The translations under genes and the position numbers were made by a program. The notes beneath the pieces are model-generated. The model saw only the letters and a program-made list of their open reading frames with translations, was not told where the DNA came from and searched no databases. DNA of 41,691 nt from Comamonadaceae bacterium (lineage in GTDB: Bacteria > Pseudomonadota > Gammaproteobacteria > Burkholderiales > Burkholderiaceae_C): the NCBI GenBank assembly GCA_947451995.1, contig CANGCI010000002.1, positions 1-41,691 of the forward strand. Reading direction: 5' to 3'. Positions 1,403-12,960 of the stretch are shown in pieces (within the stretch, counting starts at the first letter, position 1; every line of letters begins with the position of its first letter).

Positions 1403-3730
1403 ATGTCTTGGACTATCACAGACAAACATCGAACATTCAGTTTGAATGCCTTCAAACCACGGACGATGTTGCTAACGACCTCGGTTGCTTTGGGCTTAGT
1501 CGCCTGCGGCACCAGTGATTTTGTATTTGCACCGCCCAACATTCCTGCTGCCAAGTCGGCCATTGTTGCCCCTGAACTGACCACTTCATGCCCGATCGTG
1601 GCTTCCTACATTGAGTCCTTTGTGACCAAAGGGACAGGACCTGCTTTCAATGGTGCGCAATTCGGTGCAGTGGGCAGCTACAAGTACATCTTGGCCGAAG
1701 CCACCGGCAAGGTCAACGCCAATGACCCCTGCATTTCAACCATTGTGGATTTGAAAAATTCAGCAGATGCCTCAGGCCTCGTCTCTTATAAATTTGACGT
1801 GGTGATGTTGACGCCAACGGACGCCAGCAAAGGCAATGGCTCCTTGCTCTACATTGTGAACAACCGAACCAATTCAAGCGCATTTGAAGCCTTGAACGAT
1901 GGCTCTGGCAACGACTTGTTTAGCAATGTTGCCCCAGTCATCCCAACCAGTGGAGCCGATGTCGTCACAGGCGTTGGTGCTGGCAATGCTTACTTGATGA
2001 AGCAAGGCATGACCGTGGTGTTCTCGGGTTGGCAGGGCGATCGTCCCTCCACTTTGAGCGGCTCTAGCGCGGCCATTACCAGCAGTACGAAATGGTATGC
2101 GCCAGGCATGACATTGCCCGTTGCCAAAGACAACGGTGCAAAAATCACAGGCACCGTTCAAGACGAATTCATTGCCGACAATGCCACCAGCAATTTGCTG
2201 GGTACCTATTACCCACGTGTTGCCAACACACCCGCTACCTTGACGATCCGAAGAACGGCCACTGATGCACCTATTACCGTGGATGCAAGCATGTGGACGT
2301 ATACAGCGGGTACAGGCGTTGCAGAAGGTGGCAACACCGGTGCAACAGGTTTTGGCTACGTCACCATTGACCGTGCCAAAGTACGCGCAACTGCCGCTTA
2401 TGCGGCTGCCTTAGATGCAGGCAGTGACAACGGCGCCATTTATCACTTCAATTACACCGCCACCGATCCGAAGCCCATGGGCTTGGGCTTTTTAGGTGTC
2501 CGCGATTTGATTTCGTTTTTCAAGTATGAAAAAAATGACCTGACAGGCAATGTCAATCCAGTGGCAGGTGTGATCAACACGGCACTGGGAACTGGCATTT
2601 CGCAATCAGGTCGATTCTTGCGTGATTTCTTATGGCAAGGTTTTAATACAGACAAACAGCTCCGTACGGTGTTTGATGGTTTGCTGCCTTTGGTGGGGGG
2701 TTCACGCAAAACTTACACCAACTACCGCTGGTCAAAGCCAGGTGATTATTCTCGCCAGCATGAAACGCATTACACCCCCGGTGATCAGTTTCCATTTGCC
2801 TATTCAACCATCACGGATCCTTTGACGGGCAAAACCGATGGTTTGATGAAAAAATGCGCTGAGACCAACAACTGTCCCAAAGTCTTCCAATACGACAGTC
2901 CTATTGAGTTTGGTGGTGCTCGCGCCTCTTTGGTGTCCACAGATGGTGCAGGCAAAGACATTGAGATTCCTAGCAATGTGCGTTTGTTCTACGCAGCAGG
3001 AACTTCTCACGGTCCGCTTCAGCTGGCAGCCAATGCCAAGTCGCAACCTGATTACACGGTGGACAGGGCAGTCGCTGCCACAGCAGTCTCCACCTCACCC
3101 AGTGCCTTGAATGCCAGTACTGCTTTGTATCGTGCCTTGCTGACTAATTTGGACGGTTGGGTTAAAGGCAGCGCTACGCCATTGGCCAGCAGTTGGCCCA
3201 AAGTGGCTGATGGCACGATGGCGGTCCCCACCAGCGATCCCAAAAGCTTGAGTGCCATTGACCTTTCTGTTTTGGGCTTGGCCTACAGCGGCGTCTACAA
3301 CACTTTGACGGTCAACGACGAAAGTGTGATTCCAACGGCGCCAAGCAACAAAGCTTATGTGGTGCACCTGCCAACTCAAGATGGCCAAGGTAACAGCAAG
3401 GTTGGCGTGAAAATGCCTGACAGTGCCACGCCCCTTGCAACATTTGTGGGTTACAGCATTCGAAAGCCAGGCTTTGTGGCAGGTGATCAGAATGGCTTGA
3501 GCTCTTCGCAGTTGGCTTTTGCTGTCAATACCAGTGCCAAAAATAAAGCCGATACTCGCAAGAGTGTGCAAGAGTTGTATGGCACGCGAGATGGCTATGT
3601 GGCAGCATGGAATGCATCTGTCGACAAGTTGGTCGCAGACAAGCTGATGCTGCCTGACGATGCATTGGCCTACAAAAACCGTGGTTTGATGCAAGCTTCT
3701 CAACCCAACTTCTTAACTTTGGGTCAATAA
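1403..3730 (+). CDS. Large secreted lipoprotein, alpha/beta-hydrolase-domain protein (Abhydrolase_10-like)
   Basis: Lipobox-like TTSVALGLVACG; QGMTVVFSGWQGD and GTGISQSGRFLRDFLWQGFN; GGAG Shine-Dalgarno before ATG 1403. Confidence 0.75.
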   Translation: MSWTITDKHRTFSLNAFKPRTMLLTTSVALGLVACGTSDFVFAPPNIPAAKSAIVAPELTTSCPIVASYIESFVTKGTGPAFNGAQFGAVGSYKYILAEATGKVNANDPCISTIVDLKNSADASGLVSYKFDVVMLTPTDASKGNGSLLYIVNNRTNSSAFEALNDGSGNDLFSNVAPVIPTSGADVVTGVGAGNAYLMKQGMTVVFSGWQGDRPSTLSGSSAAITSSTKWYAPGMTLPVAKDNGAKITGTVQDEFIADNATSNLLGTYYPRVANTPATLTIRRTATDAPITVDASMWTYTAGTGVAEGGNTGATGFGYVTIDRAKVRATAAYAAALDAGSDNGAIYHFNYTATDPKPMGLGFLGVRDLISFFKYEKNDLTGNVNPVAGVINTALGTGISQSGRFLRDFLWQGFNTDKQLRTVFDGLLPLVGGSRKTYTNYRWSKPGDYSRQHETHYTPGDQFPFAYSTITDPLTGKTDGLMKKCAETNNCPKVFQYDSPIEFGGARASLVSTDGAGKDIEIPSNVRLFYAAGTSHGPLQLAANAKSQPDYTVDRAVAATAVSTSPSALNASTALYRALLTNLDGWVKGSATPLASSWPKVADGTMAVPTSDPKSLSAIDLSVLGLAYSGVYNTLTVNDESVIPTAPSNKAYVVHLPTQDGQGNSKVGVKMPDSATPLATFVGYSIRKPGFVAGDQNGLSSSQLAFAVNTSAKNKADTRKSVQELYGTRDGYVAAWNASVDKLVADKLMLPDDALAYKNRGLMQASQPNFLTLGQ

Positions 3731-4691: not shown

Positions 4692-6941
4692 TTACAACTT
4701 GAAAACCAAGGCTGTCACGTCGTCTCGACGTGGTTCTTTACCTTGCCATTGCGCAAAGTCTTCTTGAATGTGCTTTGCAATTTGTGCTGCATCCATCGCG
4801 TGGTGCTTTTTCAGCACAGCTTCCAATCTTCGATGACCATAGGCTGATCGCTTACCATTGTGCGATCCGATTTGATCAATCAAGCCATCGGTCACGATCA
4901 CAAAAAGGTCTTGTGGGCTATAGCTGATTATTTGAAGTTGAGGTTGCTGTGCTTCCTGCAGTGTTTCAACATAGCCCAAACTGCAGCGTTGGACGCCATG
5001 TCGAATGCATTCACCTTGCGACGTGACTTGAATTAGCCCAATTTTGGCGCTTGCAAATTCAATGCACCGCGAGGGCGGATCGATTCTCAGAATGACGGCG
5101 TCGCAACCATCGTTGCTTTCGCTGTCGAGTCGATCCTGATTGAGGCCGTGGCGTACGTAGTGGTCCAAGGAGAGCAAAGCTTGCGCAGGGTTCTCTGTGG
5201 TGTCTTGCGCGTAGATTCGCTCAAGTGAGTTGCTCACAAGCAATGACAGCATGGCGCCTGGAACCCCATGACCTGTGCAATCTGCAACAGCCAATACAAA
5301 GGGGCCCTGTTGTGTCGAAGAGGAAATCCACCACAGGTCGCCACCAATGGTGTCTCTGGGTTCCCAAATCGCTGCAAACGATTCAAAGCGATTGTCAATT
5401 CGAACGGAGCGCGGTAATTGGCCTCGTTGCAAACGGCTGGCATAGTTCACAGAATCCAGAACTTCTTTGTGTGCGGCATTGAGTGCTTTGTGCTGCGTTT
5501 GCAATTCTCGGGTGCGTTCTTCAACGGTGGCTTCTAACAGCTTGGTTTGATTTTCTGCAGCCTCGCGCTGTGCGACCAATGTGGCGCTCAGTTTTTTCTC
5601 AATCCCACGTGTTCTGGCGTGGATTGAAAAGTGGGACACCAAGGCCCCGAGCAATATAGCGATGGCCTGCAAAACATAAGTGTCGCTGAGCAACAGGGTT
5701 AAATTGGAATCGGTCCAATCTTTGAGCAGGTGGACACCTTCCATGCTCATGAGGGATAAAAACCATAAAGGCAATACGCTTGTCGCAAATACGATTGAAA
5801 ATTTGGCGGTTCGTAAGCCTTGTTTGAGTCGCATGACAGCGCAATAAATGGTGGCAGTTAGCATGCAAATGAAAAAAACATGCGAAGGCCATCTGAAAAG
5901 AGCCGGGCTGATCTCATGCTCAAAGAAGTAAGCAATGACAAAACGCAATCCTTCAAAAGCGATGAAAAGATTGCTGAAAAAATGGAATCTTGGAAAGTAG
6001 CGTTGTGTGCCTAGAAAAGCGCGACCAAATCCAAAATACATGACCAGCTGCAAATACGATATCAAGCCCATCCAAAACACATGACTGGGCATGATGCCAA
6101 TGGTGCTGGGTTGCTGATCAAATGCCAATTCAAACAAGCGCTGCCCATCTTGAATGGGTAACATGATGATTTGTAAAAATCCTAAAAACAACCACGTGCT
6201 GTAAATGACAGACACAATGTCGCGTTTAAAAAACAGGCTTGAACAAGAACTCATGACCAAAGCCAAAATAATCCCTGCAAACAGGCCTTCAATGTAAAGG
6301 CCTAATTTGCGGAGTTCTAAGTAAGTGGCTCGGTCATAAAATTGCAGATTGAAATTGGTTGCTGTGAATGTGCTGTTCGAATTCAAGCGAGACAACAGCA
6401 AGACCTCTTCATTTTTGGGCAATGTGAATACAGGATTACGGCTTAAAGAGGTGTCCATGGTGAACACAGATGGATTGATGTCATTCATGTGCAAGGGAAC
6501 ATGGGTGCTGTAAGGCCCATTCAATTCTTTGGCTTGGCCATTAGCGTCGATCACAAAATGTTGGTAACGCAGCCAATGAATGCCTTCCTTGTTGACAAAG
6601 GCGTTCACCACAATTTCTCTGTCTTCCCCCAATCGGTTGACCAATCGTTGGGCAACCCAGTAGTGAGACTTGGGCTTGATGGCTTCTACCGTGTCTGCTG
6701 GCTGAAATTCAGTCAGGCGTTTGCGCACGTCTTCGAGCGTGGCTGTGCCAGCTTTGTCCTCCAACACCAGCGCATTGAGTTTGTCGGCAAAGAAGATCGT
6801 GGTGTTGGGTCCTACCTCAAGCGGAGATTGTGCCCATGAACAAACTTGCCCCAGTATGGTGCAGGTCAAAAGACAAAATTTGAGCAGCAACAGAGGGTGC
6901 TGCCAAAGTCTGGCATTGAAATGGCAGCGGGGTGTTGTCAT
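4692..6941 (-). CDS. 7TMR-DISM-type membrane receptor fused to SpoIIE/PP2C serine phosphatase domain
   Basis: Signal-like N-terminus, extracytoplasmic domain, seven-TM-like segment, coiled coil, then PRDTIGGDLWWISS, VADCTGHGVPGAMLSLL, TDGLIDQIG, RRDDVTALV PP2C metal motifs. Confidence 0.88.
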   Translation of the reverse strand: MTTPRCHFNARLWQHPLLLLKFCLLTCTILGQVCSWAQSPLEVGPNTTIFFADKLNALVLEDKAGTATLEDVRKRLTEFQPADTVEAIKPKSHYWVAQRLVNRLGEDREIVVNAFVNKEGIHWLRYQHFVIDANGQAKELNGPYSTHVPLHMNDINPSVFTMDTSLSRNPVFTLPKNEEVLLLSRLNSNSTFTATNFNLQFYDRATYLELRKLGLYIEGLFAGIILALVMSSCSSLFFKRDIVSVIYSTWLFLGFLQIIMLPIQDGQRLFELAFDQQPSTIGIMPSHVFWMGLISYLQLVMYFGFGRAFLGTQRYFPRFHFFSNLFIAFEGLRFVIAYFFEHEISPALFRWPSHVFFICMLTATIYCAVMRLKQGLRTAKFSIVFATSVLPLWFLSLMSMEGVHLLKDWTDSNLTLLLSDTYVLQAIAILLGALVSHFSIHARTRGIEKKLSATLVAQREAAENQTKLLEATVEERTRELQTQHKALNAAHKEVLDSVNYASRLQRGQLPRSVRIDNRFESFAAIWEPRDTIGGDLWWISSSTQQGPFVLAVADCTGHGVPGAMLSLLVSNSLERIYAQDTTENPAQALLSLDHYVRHGLNQDRLDSESNDGCDAVILRIDPPSRCIEFASAKIGLIQVTSQGECIRHGVQRCSLGYVETLQEAQQPQLQIISYSPQDLFVIVTDGLIDQIGSHNGKRSAYGHRRLEAVLKKHHAMDAAQIAKHIQEDFAQWQGKEPRRDDVTALVFKL

Positions 6942-7115
6942 CGATTTGTGAGATTTGACGTGCCAGAAATTATCAAACGAATTGACGGCAATCGGATGGC
7001 TTGATCATAAGTACTTGCCCGAGGAAGTCAGAAATTGACAGAACCTATAATTTGCCCTCTATGGTCATTTGGATAAGTCTGGGCCAACTGATCAACCTTC
7101 AGTTTTGTTATAAAT

Positions 7116-8237
7116 ATGAAAATCAATCAATACCAATATCTCGATGGCGCTTGGGACCAAGCATTTGAACCCACCACTGGCAATGCTTGGATATTGGCCT
7201 TTGGTCAGCGCGGCGTTCTGAGTGAGGCCGTTTCTTCGCTTCAAAAGGCTTACCCCAATGCATCATTGGTGGCATCGTCGACCAGTGGCGAAATCCATGG
7301 CGACGAAGTGCATGACAACTCAGTCACGGCCAATGTGGTTGTTTTTGACAAAACCACCACCAAATTGGTTGCATTCCATTGCCCTAACTCGGCCAGCAGT
7401 GCCGCAACAGGTGAGCAATTAGGCAAGGCGCTTGCAGCGCCTCATTTAAAGCATGTGTTTGTGGTGTCCAACGGCCTCACTGTTAACGGTACAGCGCTGG
7501 CATCGTCTTTGCAGCAAGCGGTGGGCGCTGGCGTTTCCATTTCGGGTGGCCTTGCAGGCGATGGTGCCGATTTCAAAGAGACCCTGGTCATTGCAGGTGC
7601 AGAGACTGCAACTGATTTGGTGGCTGCCGTTGGCTTTTATGGCGAAGAGTTAAGTGTGTCCTGCGGCTCCTGGGGCGGTTGGCAACCGTTTGGCCCTATT
7701 CGCGTGGTGACCAAATCGGAAGGATCTGTATTGCACGAACTGGACGATAAAAGCGCTTTGAGCAAGTACAAAGAATACTTGGGTGAGCAAGCGGGTAGCT
7801 TGCCCGCCAATGCGTTGTTGTTTCCCATTTTGATTCAACCCGCTAACTCAGATCGCAAAATGGTCAGAACAGTGTTGGCCATTGACGAGGAAGCCCAAAC
7901 CATGACCTTTGCAGGTGATGTGCCTTTGGGTGCAACCGTGCAATTGATGCGCTCGAACACCGAGAGTTTGGTCGATGGCGCTAAATTGGCGGCAGAAAAA
8001 TCGCATGAAGGCCGAAGCGATCAGGCGCAACTGGCCATTTTGGTGAGTTGCGTTGGCCGCAAGTTGGTGATGAAGCAGCGTGTTGAAGAAGAGGTTGAAG
8101 CCGTGCGAGAAGTTCTGGGCGCACAGGCGGCTGTGACTGGCTTTTACTCTTATGGTGAATTGTCGCCACGCCAAACAGGTGCACCTTGTGACCTTCACAA
8201 CCAGACCATGACGGTGACATTGTTGAGCGAGGCTTGA
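7116..8237 (+). CDS. FIST domain (FIST_N/FIST_C) sensory protein
   Basis: ASLVASSTSGEIHGDEV, VSISGGLAGDGADFKETLV, CVGRKLVMKQRVEEEVEAVREVLG, GFYSYGELSP motifs typical of FIST proteins; no TM segments. Confidence 0.9.
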   Translation: MKINQYQYLDGAWDQAFEPTTGNAWILAFGQRGVLSEAVSSLQKAYPNASLVASSTSGEIHGDEVHDNSVTANVVVFDKTTTKLVAFHCPNSASSAATGEQLGKALAAPHLKHVFVVSNGLTVNGTALASSLQQAVGAGVSISGGLAGDGADFKETLVIAGAETATDLVAAVGFYGEELSVSCGSWGGWQPFGPIRVVTKSEGSVLHELDDKSALSKYKEYLGEQAGSLPANALLFPILIQPANSDRKMVRTVLAIDEEAQTMTFAGDVPLGATVQLMRSNTESLVDGAKLAAEKSHEGRSDQAQLAILVSCVGRKLVMKQRVEEEVEAVREVLGAQAAVTGFYSYGELSPRQTGAPCDLHNQTMTVTLLSEA

Positions 8238-9280
8238 TGCCTGCAACGCATCGCCTTCTTCAGCGGCAAGTTAAAAAGCACTTGGGTGGTGCCGTTGCTC
8301 CCGAGTTGGAGGCGTTTGTCCAAGCGGTCGATGGGGCTTACATTGACATGGACAACGACAAGTCCATGGTTGAAAGAAGCCTTGAGTTGTCTTCCAAAGA
8401 GCTGGAAGAACTCAATGATGCCGTTCGAAAAAAACAAGAAGAACTGGCTGTGGCCATGCAGCAAATCATGGAGTCTTTGCAATACGCCAGCAGGTTGCAA
8501 AGAGCTCAGTTGCCGCAGACCGATCGCTTTGTTAATCGCCTCAGAGATTTTGCGGTGCTCTGGTCTCCTAGAGACACCATTGGGGGCGATTTGTGGTGGA
8601 TTTCGCCCGGTGATTCAGAGGGCCGTTTCAGCATTGTGGTGGTCGATTGCACCGGTCATGGTGTGCCTGGTGCCATGTTGTCTTTACTTGCCAGCACATC
8701 ACTCGAGCAAATATATGGACATCACCGTGAACCAGGGCCTGCTGAGGCTTTGATGCAATTGGACCATGTCATTCGCAAGGGTTTGAACCAAGACAAGGCT
8801 GGTGCCAGCAGTGACGATGGTTGCGATGGTGCCATTTTGCAAGTCGATCCAACGACTCAAAAAATATATTTCGCAGGTTGCAGAATCGATTTGTATTGTG
8901 CAGAAACCGATGCCACCGTCTTGCGATTGGGGGCCGAACGCTTTTCAATGGGCTATCCGGATGATGTGTTTCGCAAACCACAGCAGCACGAGATGACGTG
9001 GCAAAACAATGCCATGTATGTGATGTCTTCCGACGGCCTGTTGGATCAAGTCGGTCGAAACGAAAATGGTAATTTGAGATCTTTTGGTCATCAACGTTTG
9101 ATGAAAGTCTTGGCCCAAAATGCAAACAGTGGTTGCACAAGCACCATCAATTCGGTTTCGGATTCTTTGAAGCAATGGCAAGGCGCAGAAAGTCGTCGTG
9201 ACGATGTCACCGTGATTGCATTTGTATTGCCCAGTTTTGAAGAATTGAAAGCCCTTAACAAGCCTTCTCCAACAACATAA
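8237..9280 (+). CDS. Cytoplasmic SpoIIE-family PP2C phosphatase (SiaA-like output)
   Basis: PRDTIGGDLWWISPG, VDCTGHGVPGAMLSLLAS, SSDGLLDQVG, RRDDVTVIAF; ATG at 8237 overlaps the FIST TGA (ATGA). Confidence 0.9.
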   Translation: MPATHRLLQRQVKKHLGGAVAPELEAFVQAVDGAYIDMDNDKSMVERSLELSSKELEELNDAVRKKQEELAVAMQQIMESLQYASRLQRAQLPQTDRFVNRLRDFAVLWSPRDTIGGDLWWISPGDSEGRFSIVVVDCTGHGVPGAMLSLLASTSLEQIYGHHREPGPAEALMQLDHVIRKGLNQDKAGASSDDGCDGAILQVDPTTQKIYFAGCRIDLYCAETDATVLRLGAERFSMGYPDDVFRKPQQHEMTWQNNAMYVMSSDGLLDQVGRNENGNLRSFGHQRLMKVLAQNANSGCTSTINSVSDSLKQWQGAESRRDDVTVIAFVLPSFEELKALNKPSPTT

Positions 9281-9292
9281 ATCGGAGTAGAT

Positions 9293-9817
9293 ATGGAAAT
9301 TCAAAGTGTCATTGACATGCGCCGTGAGATGCGCCAAGAGGGGGTCATCATGGCCTACAACGGCGAGATTTCAGATGAGCTCATGGTTTCCTTGGGTGTG
9401 ATTTTGCGAAATCATTTTGAAGCCATGGGAGAAGGGCAGAAGAAAGCGCGTTCTGTGTTTTCTGTCTTTGTCGAACAAGTACAAAACTTGATTTGGCATA
9501 CCCGCGGTGAAGAACGTGCGGCGGGCATGATCGTCATTGCAGAGCAAGGCAATGAAGTGACATTGGTTTGTGGTAACCGGGTTGACCGCGAAAAAGCGGA
9601 CGTCTTGCGTCAAACATTGGAATCGATTCAAGGTGTCGACAAAGAAACCATTCGTCAGTTGTATCGTGAGGGCTTGTCAAAGTCAGGCAGCCATGATGGT
9701 CCTGGTGCTGGTTTGGGATTGTTGCAACTTGCCAGGCAGTCGACGCAACCACTCTCCTTTGCATTTGTTGAGACAGACGAAGGCGATGTTGAATATTTCT
9801 TGGCAGCACGTATTTGA
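9293..9817 (+). CDS. siaB: SiaB-family protein kinase (HATPase-like)
   Basis: VIMAYNGEISDELMVSLGVILRNHFE, FSVFVEQVQNLIWHTRG, DGPGAGLGLLQLARQS; position between PP2C and SiaC matches the sia gene order. Confidence 0.85.
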   Translation: MEIQSVIDMRREMRQEGVIMAYNGEISDELMVSLGVILRNHFEAMGEGQKKARSVFSVFVEQVQNLIWHTRGEERAAGMIVIAEQGNEVTLVCGNRVDREKADVLRQTLESIQGVDKETIRQLYREGLSKSGSHDGPGAGLGLLQLARQSTQPLSFAFVETDEGDVEYFLAARI

Positions 9818-9828
9818 GGACGGACAAC

Positions 9829-10203
9829 ATGATTCAATTTGAAATTCCTGGTTCAGACAGAACACCTCACATCCAAGTACGTGCTGAAGGCGGTCTGATC
9901 TCGTTTGAAGGCGAGTCCTATCCAGAAGACGTGGCAACTTTTTACGGCCCTGTTGTCAATGCCATCACTGAATTGATGGCTGTTGCGCAAGAGGTCAATG
10001 CATCATTTCATTTGATTTATGTGAACAGCAGCAGCATGAAAGCTTTGTATCGAATTTTTGAGCTGCTGCAGAAAAAACATGAGTCTGGTGCACCCATCAA
10101 AATTGATTGGAAATTTGAAGAAGACGATGATGTGATGCAAGAGTTGGGTGAAGATTTCAAAGATCGTTTCCCTGATCTGAACTTCAATTTTCTTGCGCTT
10201 TAA
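9829..10203 (+). CDS. siaC: SiaC-family (DUF1987) regulatory phosphoprotein
   Basis: ISFEGESYPEDVATFYGPVVNAI, HLIYVNSSSMKALYRIFELL; immediately downstream of siaB-like gene. Confidence 0.88.
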   Translation: MIQFEIPGSDRTPHIQVRAEGGLISFEGESYPEDVATFYGPVVNAITELMAVAQEVNASFHLIYVNSSSMKALYRIFELLQKKHESGAPIKIDWKFEEDDDVMQELGEDFKDRFPDLNFNFLAL

Positions 10204-10217
10204 TTGCTGGACTTGCT

Positions 10218-11288
10218 TTGACCTCTTTTGATCTTTACGCCAGAGAAAATGCGCTGATCGAGGAAGCGGTGACAGCCTTGTCCAGCGGATCGGTGGACAC
10301 GCTGGACGATTATGCAAAGCGCTTGCTTGAACAACTCAAGCTCACTTTGAGTGAGAACCAACAATTGGTCAGGCATGCAGATCGTCAGCAAGCCAAGCTG
10401 GTGGACTTGAATCGAAATTTGAAACTCAAAACGCAAGAGGTTGAGCAGCGCGGTAAAGCCTTCGAGGAGTTGTCCAACAAGCTCAGCAAGTATTTGCCAC
10501 CTCAAATTCACAAAGCTTTATTTTCTGGACAACACGACACCAAAGTTGCCACTCAGCGAAAAAAACTGACGGTTTTTTTCAGTGACATCAAAGAATTCAC
10601 CACCTCTGCCGAGTCACTTCAGCCTGAGGCCTTGACTGAGTACCTCAATGAGTACTTCTCGGAGATGACCAAAATTGCACTTGAATACGGTGCAACCATC
10701 GACAAGTACATTGGCGATGCCATGATGCTGTTCTTTGGGGATCCAGATACTCGCGGTGTGGCTGAAGATGCCATTGCGTGTGTTGAGATGGCTGTCAAAA
10801 TGCAAAGCCGGATGCGCGTCCTGGGTGAGCAGTGGAAGAAACGCGGATTTGAAACCCCCTTCATCATCCGCATTGGTATCAATACGGGTTATTGCAATGT
10901 CGGTAATTTTGGTAGCGAAGAGCGCCTCAGTTACACCATCATTGGTGGTGAAGTGAACATCGCTCAACGCCTTGAATCGAATGCAGAGCCGGGTGGCATT
11001 CTGATGAGTTATGAAACCTATGCCCATGTAAAGCACCTCTATCAGGCAGAGGAAAAACCATCGATGCACCTGAAAGGTATTTCGCGCGAAATTAAAACCT
11101 TTGCTTTGCGTGATCGAATCGATGCAGGGCAAGAGACTTTGAAATGGTCGCACCCTGCAGGTGTTCAAATCAGTGTGTCGCCAGAACAAATGGATTCTCG
11201 TTCGCGTGAAGAGCTGGCGTCTCAACTGGCAGACATTGCGCGGCAGTTGGGTCAATACGCAACGCCACAACCATCCCCCAAGATATGA
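10218..11288 (+). CDS. Class III adenylate/guanylate cyclase domain protein with N-terminal coiled coil
   Basis: LTVFFSDIKEFTTSAE, IDKYIGDAMMLFFGDPD, RIGINTGYCNVGNFGSEERLSYTIIGGEVNIAQRLE catalytic motifs. Confidence 0.92.
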   Translation: MTSFDLYARENALIEEAVTALSSGSVDTLDDYAKRLLEQLKLTLSENQQLVRHADRQQAKLVDLNRNLKLKTQEVEQRGKAFEELSNKLSKYLPPQIHKALFSGQHDTKVATQRKKLTVFFSDIKEFTTSAESLQPEALTEYLNEYFSEMTKIALEYGATIDKYIGDAMMLFFGDPDTRGVAEDAIACVEMAVKMQSRMRVLGEQWKKRGFETPFIIRIGINTGYCNVGNFGSEERLSYTIIGGEVNIAQRLESNAEPGGILMSYETYAHVKHLYQAEEKPSMHLKGISREIKTFALRDRIDAGQETLKWSHPAGVQISVSPEQMDSRSREELASQLADIARQLGQYATPQPSPKI

Positions 11289-11755
11289 CAAACAATCCTT
11301 TGTGCTTTGCAGTCGATTCAGAAAAGCTTGGCAAGTTGGGCATTAATTTTTTGCGCTCCAGTGAGGGTGCTGCCGCCCTGAAAGCAGGTCAACTCAAGGG
11401 CGAAGAACGCTTGTTTTTAAGCCTTCTTGGCACGCCCCTTCTCAATGCAACCCTGATTTTGCCTGGGAAAAAAATCATCGAAGCTGGCAATCAGTTTGAA
11501 GATGCCTACTTCGTGATCAATGGTGAAGTTCAAATTCAGCAAGGAGAAAAATCATTCCGATTGGGCGCAGGATCTGTCCTGGGCCTGGCAGAGGGCATGG
11601 TGGGTTTGGCCGCACGCTACACGGCCACTGCGCTAACCCCTGTCCAAGTCAAGATGATTCCATTTCACAAAGTGGACAGCATTGTCAAAGTTTTGCCGCC
11701 TGAACTTCGCGCCATCATGGTGACCATCATTAAACGCAATCTGGCCGTGTCCTGA
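11285..11755 (+). CDS. Cyclic nucleotide-binding domain protein (divergent phosphate-binding cassette)
   Basis: PGKKIIEAGNQFEDAYFVINGEVQIQQGEKSFRLGAGSVLGLAEG CNB beta-roll; start overlaps cyclase stop (ATGA). Confidence 0.82.
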   Translation: MTNNPLCFAVDSEKLGKLGINFLRSSEGAAALKAGQLKGEERLFLSLLGTPLLNATLILPGKKIIEAGNQFEDAYFVINGEVQIQQGEKSFRLGAGSVLGLAEGMVGLAARYTATALTPVQVKMIPFHKVDSIVKVLPPELRAIMVTIIKRNLAVS

Positions 11756-11770
11756 AATGAAGGTGTTGGC

Positions 11771-12115
11771 ATGAGCAATTTTCAAATTGAAGAATTTTCC
11801 GCAGGTCAGACCATTTTTAAATTGGGCGACCCTGCAACACACCTTTATTTTTTGGAAAAAGGTGAGGTTGAACTGATTGACAAAAATGAGCGTGTCTTTG
11901 GTGTGATTCCTCAGGGGCAGTCGTTTGGTGAAGCTGCTATTTTGTCCGGTGGCATCCGCGGTGCCTCCATTCGTGCAAAAGGTGATGTGGCTTGTAAAAA
12001 GATCAACAACCAAGAGGCTGCTGAGTTGCTGAGTACTTATTCACCTTTGCTGGTTGTGATCATGGAGGCATTGTTGTTGCAGCAAACCATGAACAATGCT
12101 GTTAAAAATACCTGA
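11771..12115 (+). CDS. Minimal cyclic nucleotide-binding domain protein
   Basis: FSAGQTIFKLGDPATHLYFLEKGEVELID...GQSFGEAAILSGGIRGASIRAKGD, a canonical CNB phosphate-binding cassette (FGE...R). Confidence 0.88.
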   Translation: MSNFQIEEFSAGQTIFKLGDPATHLYFLEKGEVELIDKNERVFGVIPQGQSFGEAAILSGGIRGASIRAKGDVACKKINNQEAAELLSTYSPLLVVIMEALLLQQTMNNAVKNT

Positions 12116-12960
12116 TGTCCGGTGATCTGAAGGCCGATATGAACTTGTTCTTAAATCCCAAGGAAGCAAGTTGGCCTAACGCCTTTGATCATGCAATTGG
12201 CGTATTGCATGCCTCTTGGCCAGTTCAGTGGTGTGGTTTACCTCAAGTGCTTGAAGCGTGCATTGACCATTTAGACCTTCAGCACCATGCCCTAACGCCT
12301 GACGTTCAGAACTTGTTAGCAGCTTCGCGTGAGATTGCCGATCAACTCGAGCAATTGAGCCTCAATACGTCTGCGTACACTGAACCGCGCTATCACAACC
12401 GACTCCATACGGCCGATGTTTTGGCATCCATGACTTTGTTGGTGGCCATAGAAACCCAGCTTCAATCTGACAGGACTCCGGATTGGTGCGCTGCAGCTTT
12501 GTTGGCTGCGGTGGCTCATGATTTTGCGCATCCCGGTCGTGTGAACTCAAAACCATCTGAGTTAGAGCAATCTTCGATGTTGGGCGTGTTGCCCATTTTG
12601 AAGAAGCACCATGTCAAGTCTGAATGGATTGAATGTATCGAATATGTGGTTCTCAGATCTGACTTTGCCCTGGTAGCAGAAAATCATCGCCTCGTGGAAG
12701 GTCAATCATTTGCATGGCACCAAGATTGGCTTGCAGTACTTCTGAATGAAGCCGATATTTTGGGCAGCAGTGTTTCTGCCTTCGGTGAATCCTTGGGCCA
12801 TGCATTGTCAGATGAATGGCGCATGATTAATTTTCCCCCTTTTTCAACGGTTGCCACACCCGATGGCCGTCGTAAATTTTTGCAGAGTTTGAAGTTCTCA
12901 AGCAATGCTTCCCGTATATTGGGTGTGCAAGAGAGAATCACTGGGCAACTGATGCGCTAG
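12115..12960 (+). CDS. 3',5'-cyclic nucleotide phosphodiesterase, class I (PDEase_I)-like HD domain
   Basis: YHNRLHTADVLASM...AALLAAVAHDFAHPGRVN...LKKHHVKSEWI metal-binding His/Asp motifs; TGATG overlap with upstream CNB gene. Confidence 0.87.
   Translation: MSGDLKADMNLFLNPKEASWPNAFDHAIGVLHASWPVQWCGLPQVLEACIDHLDLQHHALTPDVQNLLAASREIADQLEQLSLNTSAYTEPRYHNRLHTADVLASMTLLVAIETQLQSDRTPDWCAAALLAAVAHDFAHPGRVNSKPSELEQSSMLGVLPILKKHHVKSEWIECIEYVVLRSDFALVAENHRLVEGQSFAWHQDWLAVLLNEADILGSSVSAFGESLGHALSDEWRMINFPPFSTVATPDGRRKFLQSLKFSSNASRILGVQERITGQLMR

Follow-up and report, generated by a model that had tools for sequence, protein, structure and literature searches.

The window analyzed here is a 41,691-nucleotide stretch (contig CANGCI010000002.1 of assembly GCA_947451995.1) from Comamonadaceae bacterium, a freshwater Limnohabitans-like betaproteobacterium whose assembly is 81% complete. 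It contains a locus in which two phosphatase genes with SiaA-like PP2C (SpoIIE) catalytic domains adjoin one siaB-siaC pair and a gene for a class III nucleotide cyclase. The main features of this locus are as follows.

4692..6941, minus strand: receptor phosphatase of 749 amino acids (aa), with a putative 7TMR-DISM-type receptor, a long coiled-coil helix and a SiaA-like PP2C domain (PF07228, 88.7 bits)
6942..7115, no strand: divergent intergenic region of 174 bp that separates the receptor phosphatase gene from the FIST operon
7116..8237, plus strand: stand-alone FIST protein (FIST_N and FIST_C), a putative sensor of 373 aa (PF08495, 134.8 bits; PF10442, 121 bits)
8237..9280, plus strand: cytosolic SiaA-like PP2C that lacks its own sensor domain (PF07228, 75.2 bits; structure 6k4e, 123 bits)
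9293..9817, plus strand: SiaB-family protein kinase (NF038262, 147.9 bits, cut-off 85; SiaB structure 6kko, 81.8 bits)
9829..10203, plus strand: SiaC (PF09345, 117 bits, cut-off 24.5; alignment to 6kko)
10218..11288, plus strand: class III nucleotide cyclase, CyaB-like, a predicted adenylate cyclase (PF00211, 100 bits; Pseudomonas aeruginosa CyaB 3r5g, 228.8 bits)

The receptor phosphatase gene is divergent from a plus-strand operon (7116-12960) that encodes FIST, PP2C, SiaB, SiaC, the cyclase, two cyclic nucleotide monophosphate (cNMP)-binding proteins and a PDEase_I phosphodiesterase, and in which neighboring genes overlap or lie at most 26 bp apart. A promoter scan of the divergent region (6942..7115) returned one weak sigma70-like site on the minus strand, no more than shuffled sequences yield. 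The initial annotation, made from the sequence alone, had the two phosphatases flanking SiaB/SiaC and had assigned all four to positions 4692-9280; this layout requires correction, as both PP2C genes lie upstream of siaB-siaC, which occupy 9293-10203. In a profile search, these two PP2Cs were the only SpoIIE matches in the assembly.

The same annotation had described two SpoIIE phosphatases with similar catalytic domains, one fused to a membrane receptor and the other sensorless and coupled to FIST, and this description holds. Both proteins score well above the PF07228 cut-off (25 bits), and their catalytic parts (the C-terminal ~260 residues) are 40% identical (129/324; E=4e-83), well beyond chance. 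The metal-binding and catalytic motifs GGDxW, DCTGHG, DG and RRDD are intact in both; a further proposed common motif, DDGCDxxIL, is exact in the cytosolic PP2C and reads NDGCDAVIL in the receptor PP2C. A sequence search of the Protein Data Bank with either domain retrieved 6k4e, the PP2C domain of P. aeruginosa SiaA, as the sole match, and this relatedness, with the metal-ligand Asp retained, places both among SiaA-type catalytic domains. Against the SiaA equivalog NF038263 they score 182.5 and 181.0 bits, through the PP2C and linker part only and below the cut-off of 700.

The receptor phosphatase begins with a signal-peptide-like N-terminus and contains seven hydrophobic helices. Its AlphaFold model comprises a beta domain (~41-203, extracellular), seven helices and a helix (421-507) that runs into the PP2C domain, and its top Foldseek match is again 6k4e (E 7e-16). 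The protein reaches 21.1 bits against 7TMR-DISMED2 (cut-off 22) and leaves the 7TM model unmatched; its orthologues in L012 and L133 exceed the 7TMR-DISM_7TM cut-off (L numbers denote the SiaBC loci compared with the window).

The N-terminus of the cytosolic PP2C consists only of a coiled-coil-like helical linker of ~75 aa, and the FIST stop codon has 1 nucleotide in common with its ATG at 8237 (TGATG). This layout of helical linker plus PP2C recalls RsbU and RsbP, in which partner proteins act on the linker (PMC12143880). By analogy with RsbP, which is activated by the separate partner RsbQ, FIST may act on the cytosolic PP2C. FIST proteins of the NosP type bind heme and nitric oxide (NO) and are paired with sensorless kinases (PMC12570481); the FIST protein of the window scores 50.4 bits against the NosP equivalog NF041558, far under the cut-off of 450. 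A second FIST protein (475-aa frame) is encoded elsewhere in the same assembly (G000 C178:1867-2472). No second FIST-PP2C pair outside SiaBC loci was detected at E<1e-45 among 401 genomes of the family, and a literature search retrieved no paper that combines SpoIIE with either FIST or 7TMR-DISM.

The candidate substrate of both phosphatases, SiaC, is encoded in the same operon as the cytosolic PP2C. SiaB retains the predicted catalytic Glu61, in keeping with its assignment to the SiaB family. In SiaC, the P. aeruginosa phospho-acceptor T68 corresponds to Ser67 (N66-S67-S68, motif YxN[TS]S), as expected of a SiaC-family member; this position is Ser in 39/39 cyclase-linked SiaCs and in 87/112 others. 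Each phosphatase type also occurs as the lone phosphatase beside a SiaBC-cyclase operon, the receptor type in, for example, L012 to L014, L017, L024 and L027 and the FIST-coupled type in L004. (L013, CAMDKR010000009.1, is labelled as a Bordetella parapertussis metagenome-assembled genome; its SiaBC locus clusters with those of freshwater Comamonadaceae bins, and the label looks wrong.) SiaA-like PP2Cs (E<1e-30) and SiaC are found in the same 13 of 90 Limnohabitans genomes, and none of the other 77 encodes such a PP2C; the chance of this co-occurrence would be 1 in 10^15 for independent genomes, which these are not. The window's assembly, at its 81% completeness, contains a single SiaC and a single STAS match (in a 565-aa frame); none of its stand-alone proteins matches the anti-sigma model HATPase_c_2 above the cut-off. 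Because the PP2C/SiaC co-occurrence is exact across the 90 genomes and no other obvious partner-switch substrate stands out in this assembly, the proposal of the initial annotation that membrane and cytoplasmic inputs converge on the same SiaC is well supported by comparison.

Two or three PP2Cs around one SiaBC pair are present in the window, L016 and L022 and, in part, in L019, where one copy has collapsed, and L020, which is cut by a contig end. Such loci account for 5/39 of the cyclase-linked loci and 1/112 of the others. The L019 remnant (3116-3589) derives from a second receptor phosphatase, of which it keeps the signal peptide and the beginning of the extracellular domain, joined to the final ~110 residues of a PP2C. 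Some SiaA-like PP2Cs carry N-terminal domains of ~250 or ~145 aa unmatched by Pfam (L016 7876-9396, L021 9463-11001, L022 4376-7410 and L062 7366-8574); lying beside SiaBC-cyclase operons, these probably represent further sensor types.

The initial annotation was silent on the output branch, in which a class III cyclase takes the place of SiaD. Residues D123, D167, N247, R251, K163 and T240 of this cyclase are invariant in 14 such cyclases and follow the pattern of CyaB. We take these to be the two metal-binding Asp residues, the transition-state Asn and Arg, and the purine-selecting Lys and Thr/Asp, a pattern that assigns the protein to the class III adenylate cyclases and makes cyclic AMP (cAMP) its likely product. 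The N-terminal stalk is short and cytosolic, with no membrane-type hydrophobic stretch, and its predicted helix (AlphaFold, 26-90) contains RHADRQQ (residues 52-58), which aligns with RISDRYQ of SiaD. In the solved P. aeruginosa complex, this SiaD segment (R80-Q86) touches T68 of SiaC (PMC8457831). The window's cyclase thus carries the R-x-S-D-R-x-Q effector stalk of the SiaABCD system, with Ser replaced by Ala at one contact.

Among proteins encoded directly after SiaC, the stalk motif occurs in all 38 class III cyclases, in 50 of 56 diguanylate cyclases and in all 11 histidine kinases (Azospirillum), with examples among loci L030-L040 and L073-L170; of such proteins encoded elsewhere in the same loci, only 2 of 21 have it. 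Cyclases, diguanylate cyclases and histidine kinases after SiaC have this motif in common, so SiaC seems to act on three or more types of output by docking on it. Matches of the adenylate cyclase profile to some diguanylate cyclases and Azospirillum kinases proved on inspection to lie in the common stalk. In a literature search whose coverage did not extend to Chen et al. 2020 (EMBO J), no paper tied SiaC to an adenylate cyclase. The remaining genes of the operon are as follows.

11285..11755, plus strand: cNMP-binding-fold protein with a degenerate phosphate-binding cassette (PF00027, 33.3 bits; no GE...RxAS motif)
11771..12115, plus strand: stand-alone cNMP-binding protein whose phosphate-binding cassette, GEAAILSGGIRGAS, is intact (PF00027, 66.1 bits)
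12115..12960, plus strand: class I (PDEase_I) cyclic-nucleotide phosphodiesterase (PF00233, 34.1 bits; metal signatures YHNRLHTADV and HDFAHPGRVN)

The occurrence of a eukaryote-like PDEase_I in a betaproteobacterial operon is not confined to the window, since it is conserved with the cyclase and the cNMP proteins across many related loci.

Phylogenetic trees were built from 44 PP2C domains and, in a larger tree, from 144. The initial annotation had held that phylogenetically distant domains would speak against a shared substrate; both PP2Cs fall within one well-supported clade (100/99) of PP2Cs from class III cyclase loci. This clade also takes in three loci of one family without an identified effector, and in the 44-domain tree SiaA and other PP2Cs of diguanylate cyclase loci lie outside it. 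In L126, L128 and L131, SiaB-SiaC are followed directly by a PP2C of this clade, with no recognised effector nearby. The cytosolic PP2C is sister to the FIST-coupled PP2C of L004, another Limnohabitans SiaBC locus (100/99), and the receptor PP2C is sister to that of L003 (100/100).

The locus as a whole appears to have a composite history. The full-length receptor proteins of the window and L003 group with those of L060/L061 (100/100; separation rejected, p 1e-91), whereas for the SiaB plus SiaC core of the same two loci a grouping with L060/L061 was rejected (p 6e-6). In one tree, this core is placed near L004 (87/77). A mosaic test restricted to the PP2C domain was indecisive (p 0.17), whereas the full-length receptor tree was decisive. 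Elsewhere, members of the receptor PP2C's family adjoin siaB-siaC, and in L003 the receptor phosphatase gene is directly divergent from siaB. L004 encodes FIST-PP2C-SiaB-SiaC-cyclase without a receptor phosphatase, whereas the window has both phosphatases. The conflicting SiaBC and receptor phosphatase histories argue that the receptor phosphatase was probably added to a FIST-PP2C/SiaBC locus. The FIST-PP2C pair is thus probably the older partner of the SiaBC core, and the receptor phosphatase probably a later arrival from a second lineage of SiaBC-cyclase loci. A probable origin of one phosphatase at another locus, on which the initial annotation was silent, emerges from these conflicting trees. 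In L003 (5509-6256), ~159 bp are gone at the siaB-siaC junction (SiaB C-terminus and SiaC N-terminus), a true loss of function or an assembly error.

Other explanations of the two phosphatases differ widely in plausibility. A single SiaA-like gene that was duplicated locally in tandem, with sensor fusion as a later step, would fit two adjacent catalytic domains with 40% identity. The initial annotation had called the two paralogous and had proposed a phylogeny of the PP2C domains to examine local duplication; in that phylogeny their sisterhood is rejected by the approximately unbiased (AU) test (p 5.9e-8, delta lnL 115), and each has a closer relative in another genome (~93-94% PP2C identity to L003 for the receptor PP2C, 60% for the cytosolic PP2C). 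Local duplication is hence highly improbable, and the domains are paralogous in the broad sense only. It is also rather improbable, though less so, that the two enzymes serve different substrates, one acting on SiaC and the other on an unlinked phosphoprotein, or that FIST-PP2C controls something else. Such a division would suit catalytic domains that are 60% divergent, genes on opposite strands and an incomplete assembly; it is at odds with the absence, among the 90 Limnohabitans genomes, of any with a SiaA-like PP2C but without SiaC, with the occurrence of each PP2C type alone at SiaBC-cyclase loci, and with an assembly whose only STAS match lies in the 565-aa frame and in which no stand-alone HATPase_c_2 exceeds the cut-off.

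A third explanation is possible, if doubtful: a phosphatase replacement may be under way, with a recent receptor enzyme, two largely redundant phosphatases and a FIST-PP2C that is being lost, so that two-input integration would be incidental. The nearest relative, L003, has the receptor phosphatase without FIST-PP2C, of which DNA comparison revealed no trace and no degraded remnant, the receptor phosphatase and SiaBC histories conflict, and a second phosphatase copy has collapsed in L019. However, both PP2Cs of the window keep all catalytic motifs, the FIST overlap is intact, and several loci have two or three PP2Cs. The genome of L003, moreover, has a further SiaA-like PP2C, distinct from the first and encoded on a different contig (L059). 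Replacement would in any case be compatible with convergence on SiaC and would merely lower its adaptive meaning.

We therefore favor, with a probability of about 0.72, a SiaABC-type partner switch with two inputs and a nucleotide cyclase as its target, encoded by a composite locus. By analogy with P. aeruginosa, from which the direction of control is taken, SiaB would phosphorylate SiaC, probably on Ser67, and so keep it off its target. The membrane phosphatase, with its 7TMR-DISM-type receptor, would remove this phosphate when a signal arrives from the envelope or from outside the cell, and the FIST-coupled enzyme would do so upon a cytoplasmic signal sensed by FIST. Dephosphorylated SiaC would then bind R-x-[SA]-D-R on the coiled-coil stalk of the cyclase and switch on cAMP synthesis; the cNMP-binding proteins would read cAMP, and the class I phosphodiesterase would remove it. 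Several observations weigh against this reading. The SiaD contact S82 is the Ala of RHADRQQ in the window's cyclase, and some SiaC contacts have changed (R103 to Val). The proposed coupling of FIST to PP2C is based on gene overlap in just two loci, and the receptor phosphatase, being on the opposite strand, might be active in other circumstances. The assembly, at 81% completeness, may lack a second SiaC or a further substrate. The placement of SiaBC beside L004 is weak (87/77 in one tree, absent in another, p 0.15), and the suggested sequence of gains and losses is drawn from a small number of taxa.

Among the closest known systems is the threonine-phosphorylation switch SiaABCD of P. aeruginosa (PMC7647112, PMC8457831), with which the locus shares a SiaA-type PP2C, SiaB with E61, the SiaC motif YxN[TS]S and the effector docking stalk. 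The locus departs from SiaABCD in its second phosphatase, in inputs of the 7TMR-DISM type and FIST where SiaABCD has Cache-HAMP, in a class III cyclase that follows siaC in place of SiaD, a GGDEF diguanylate cyclase, in a Ser phospho-acceptor (Thr in SiaABCD), and in additional cNMP-binding proteins and a phosphodiesterase. In Bacillus subtilis, RsbU and RsbP, two PP2Cs with different inputs, likewise act on one STAS-fold phosphoprotein, RsbV (PMC12143880); their output, however, is a sigma factor controlled via RsbW, without a second-messenger cyclase, and the phosphatases belong to another subfamily. No sigma factor or anti-sigma kinase genes lie beside the locus, which, with the lack of HATPase_c_2 matches above the cut-off in the assembly, sets it apart from the RsbU/RsbP-RsbV systems. 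NosP-NosK, a FIST heme/NO sensor with a sensorless histidine kinase (PMC12570481), offers a parallel for a stand-alone FIST gene that adjoins a sensorless signalling enzyme; in the window, the partner is instead a PP2C, and FIST falls as far below the NosP cut-off as noted above. CyaB (3r5g) is the closest solved catalytic domain to that of the cyclase, whose N-terminus differs in being a short SiaC-docking stalk. We regard the locus as a new form of the SiaABC switch whose logic is the established one of RsbU and RsbP acting on RsbV; the convergence proposed in the initial annotation has support, short of proof.

More broadly, and with about even odds, the SiaC family may be a general adaptor. 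Its docking motif, a short R-x-S-D-R stretch of the stalk, would have been grafted onto histidine kinases as well as onto diguanylate and class III adenylate cyclases, and a range of sensor phosphatases (7TMR-DISM, FIST-coupled, Cache-HAMP and others) would be added, combined and exchanged as inputs; the window would then be a natural two-input cAMP version in which both phosphatases are present together. SiaABC has so far been known as a cyclic di-GMP biofilm switch with one phosphatase. If our reading is correct, the same switch would also govern cAMP in freshwater Burkholderiales and take in two sensor phosphatases at once, and a portable docking motif would predict SiaC targets from sequence alone. 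The locus would be a Gram-negative counterpart of RsbU/RsbP, and it would offer a tractable example of input addition and replacement in a bacterial signalling pathway.

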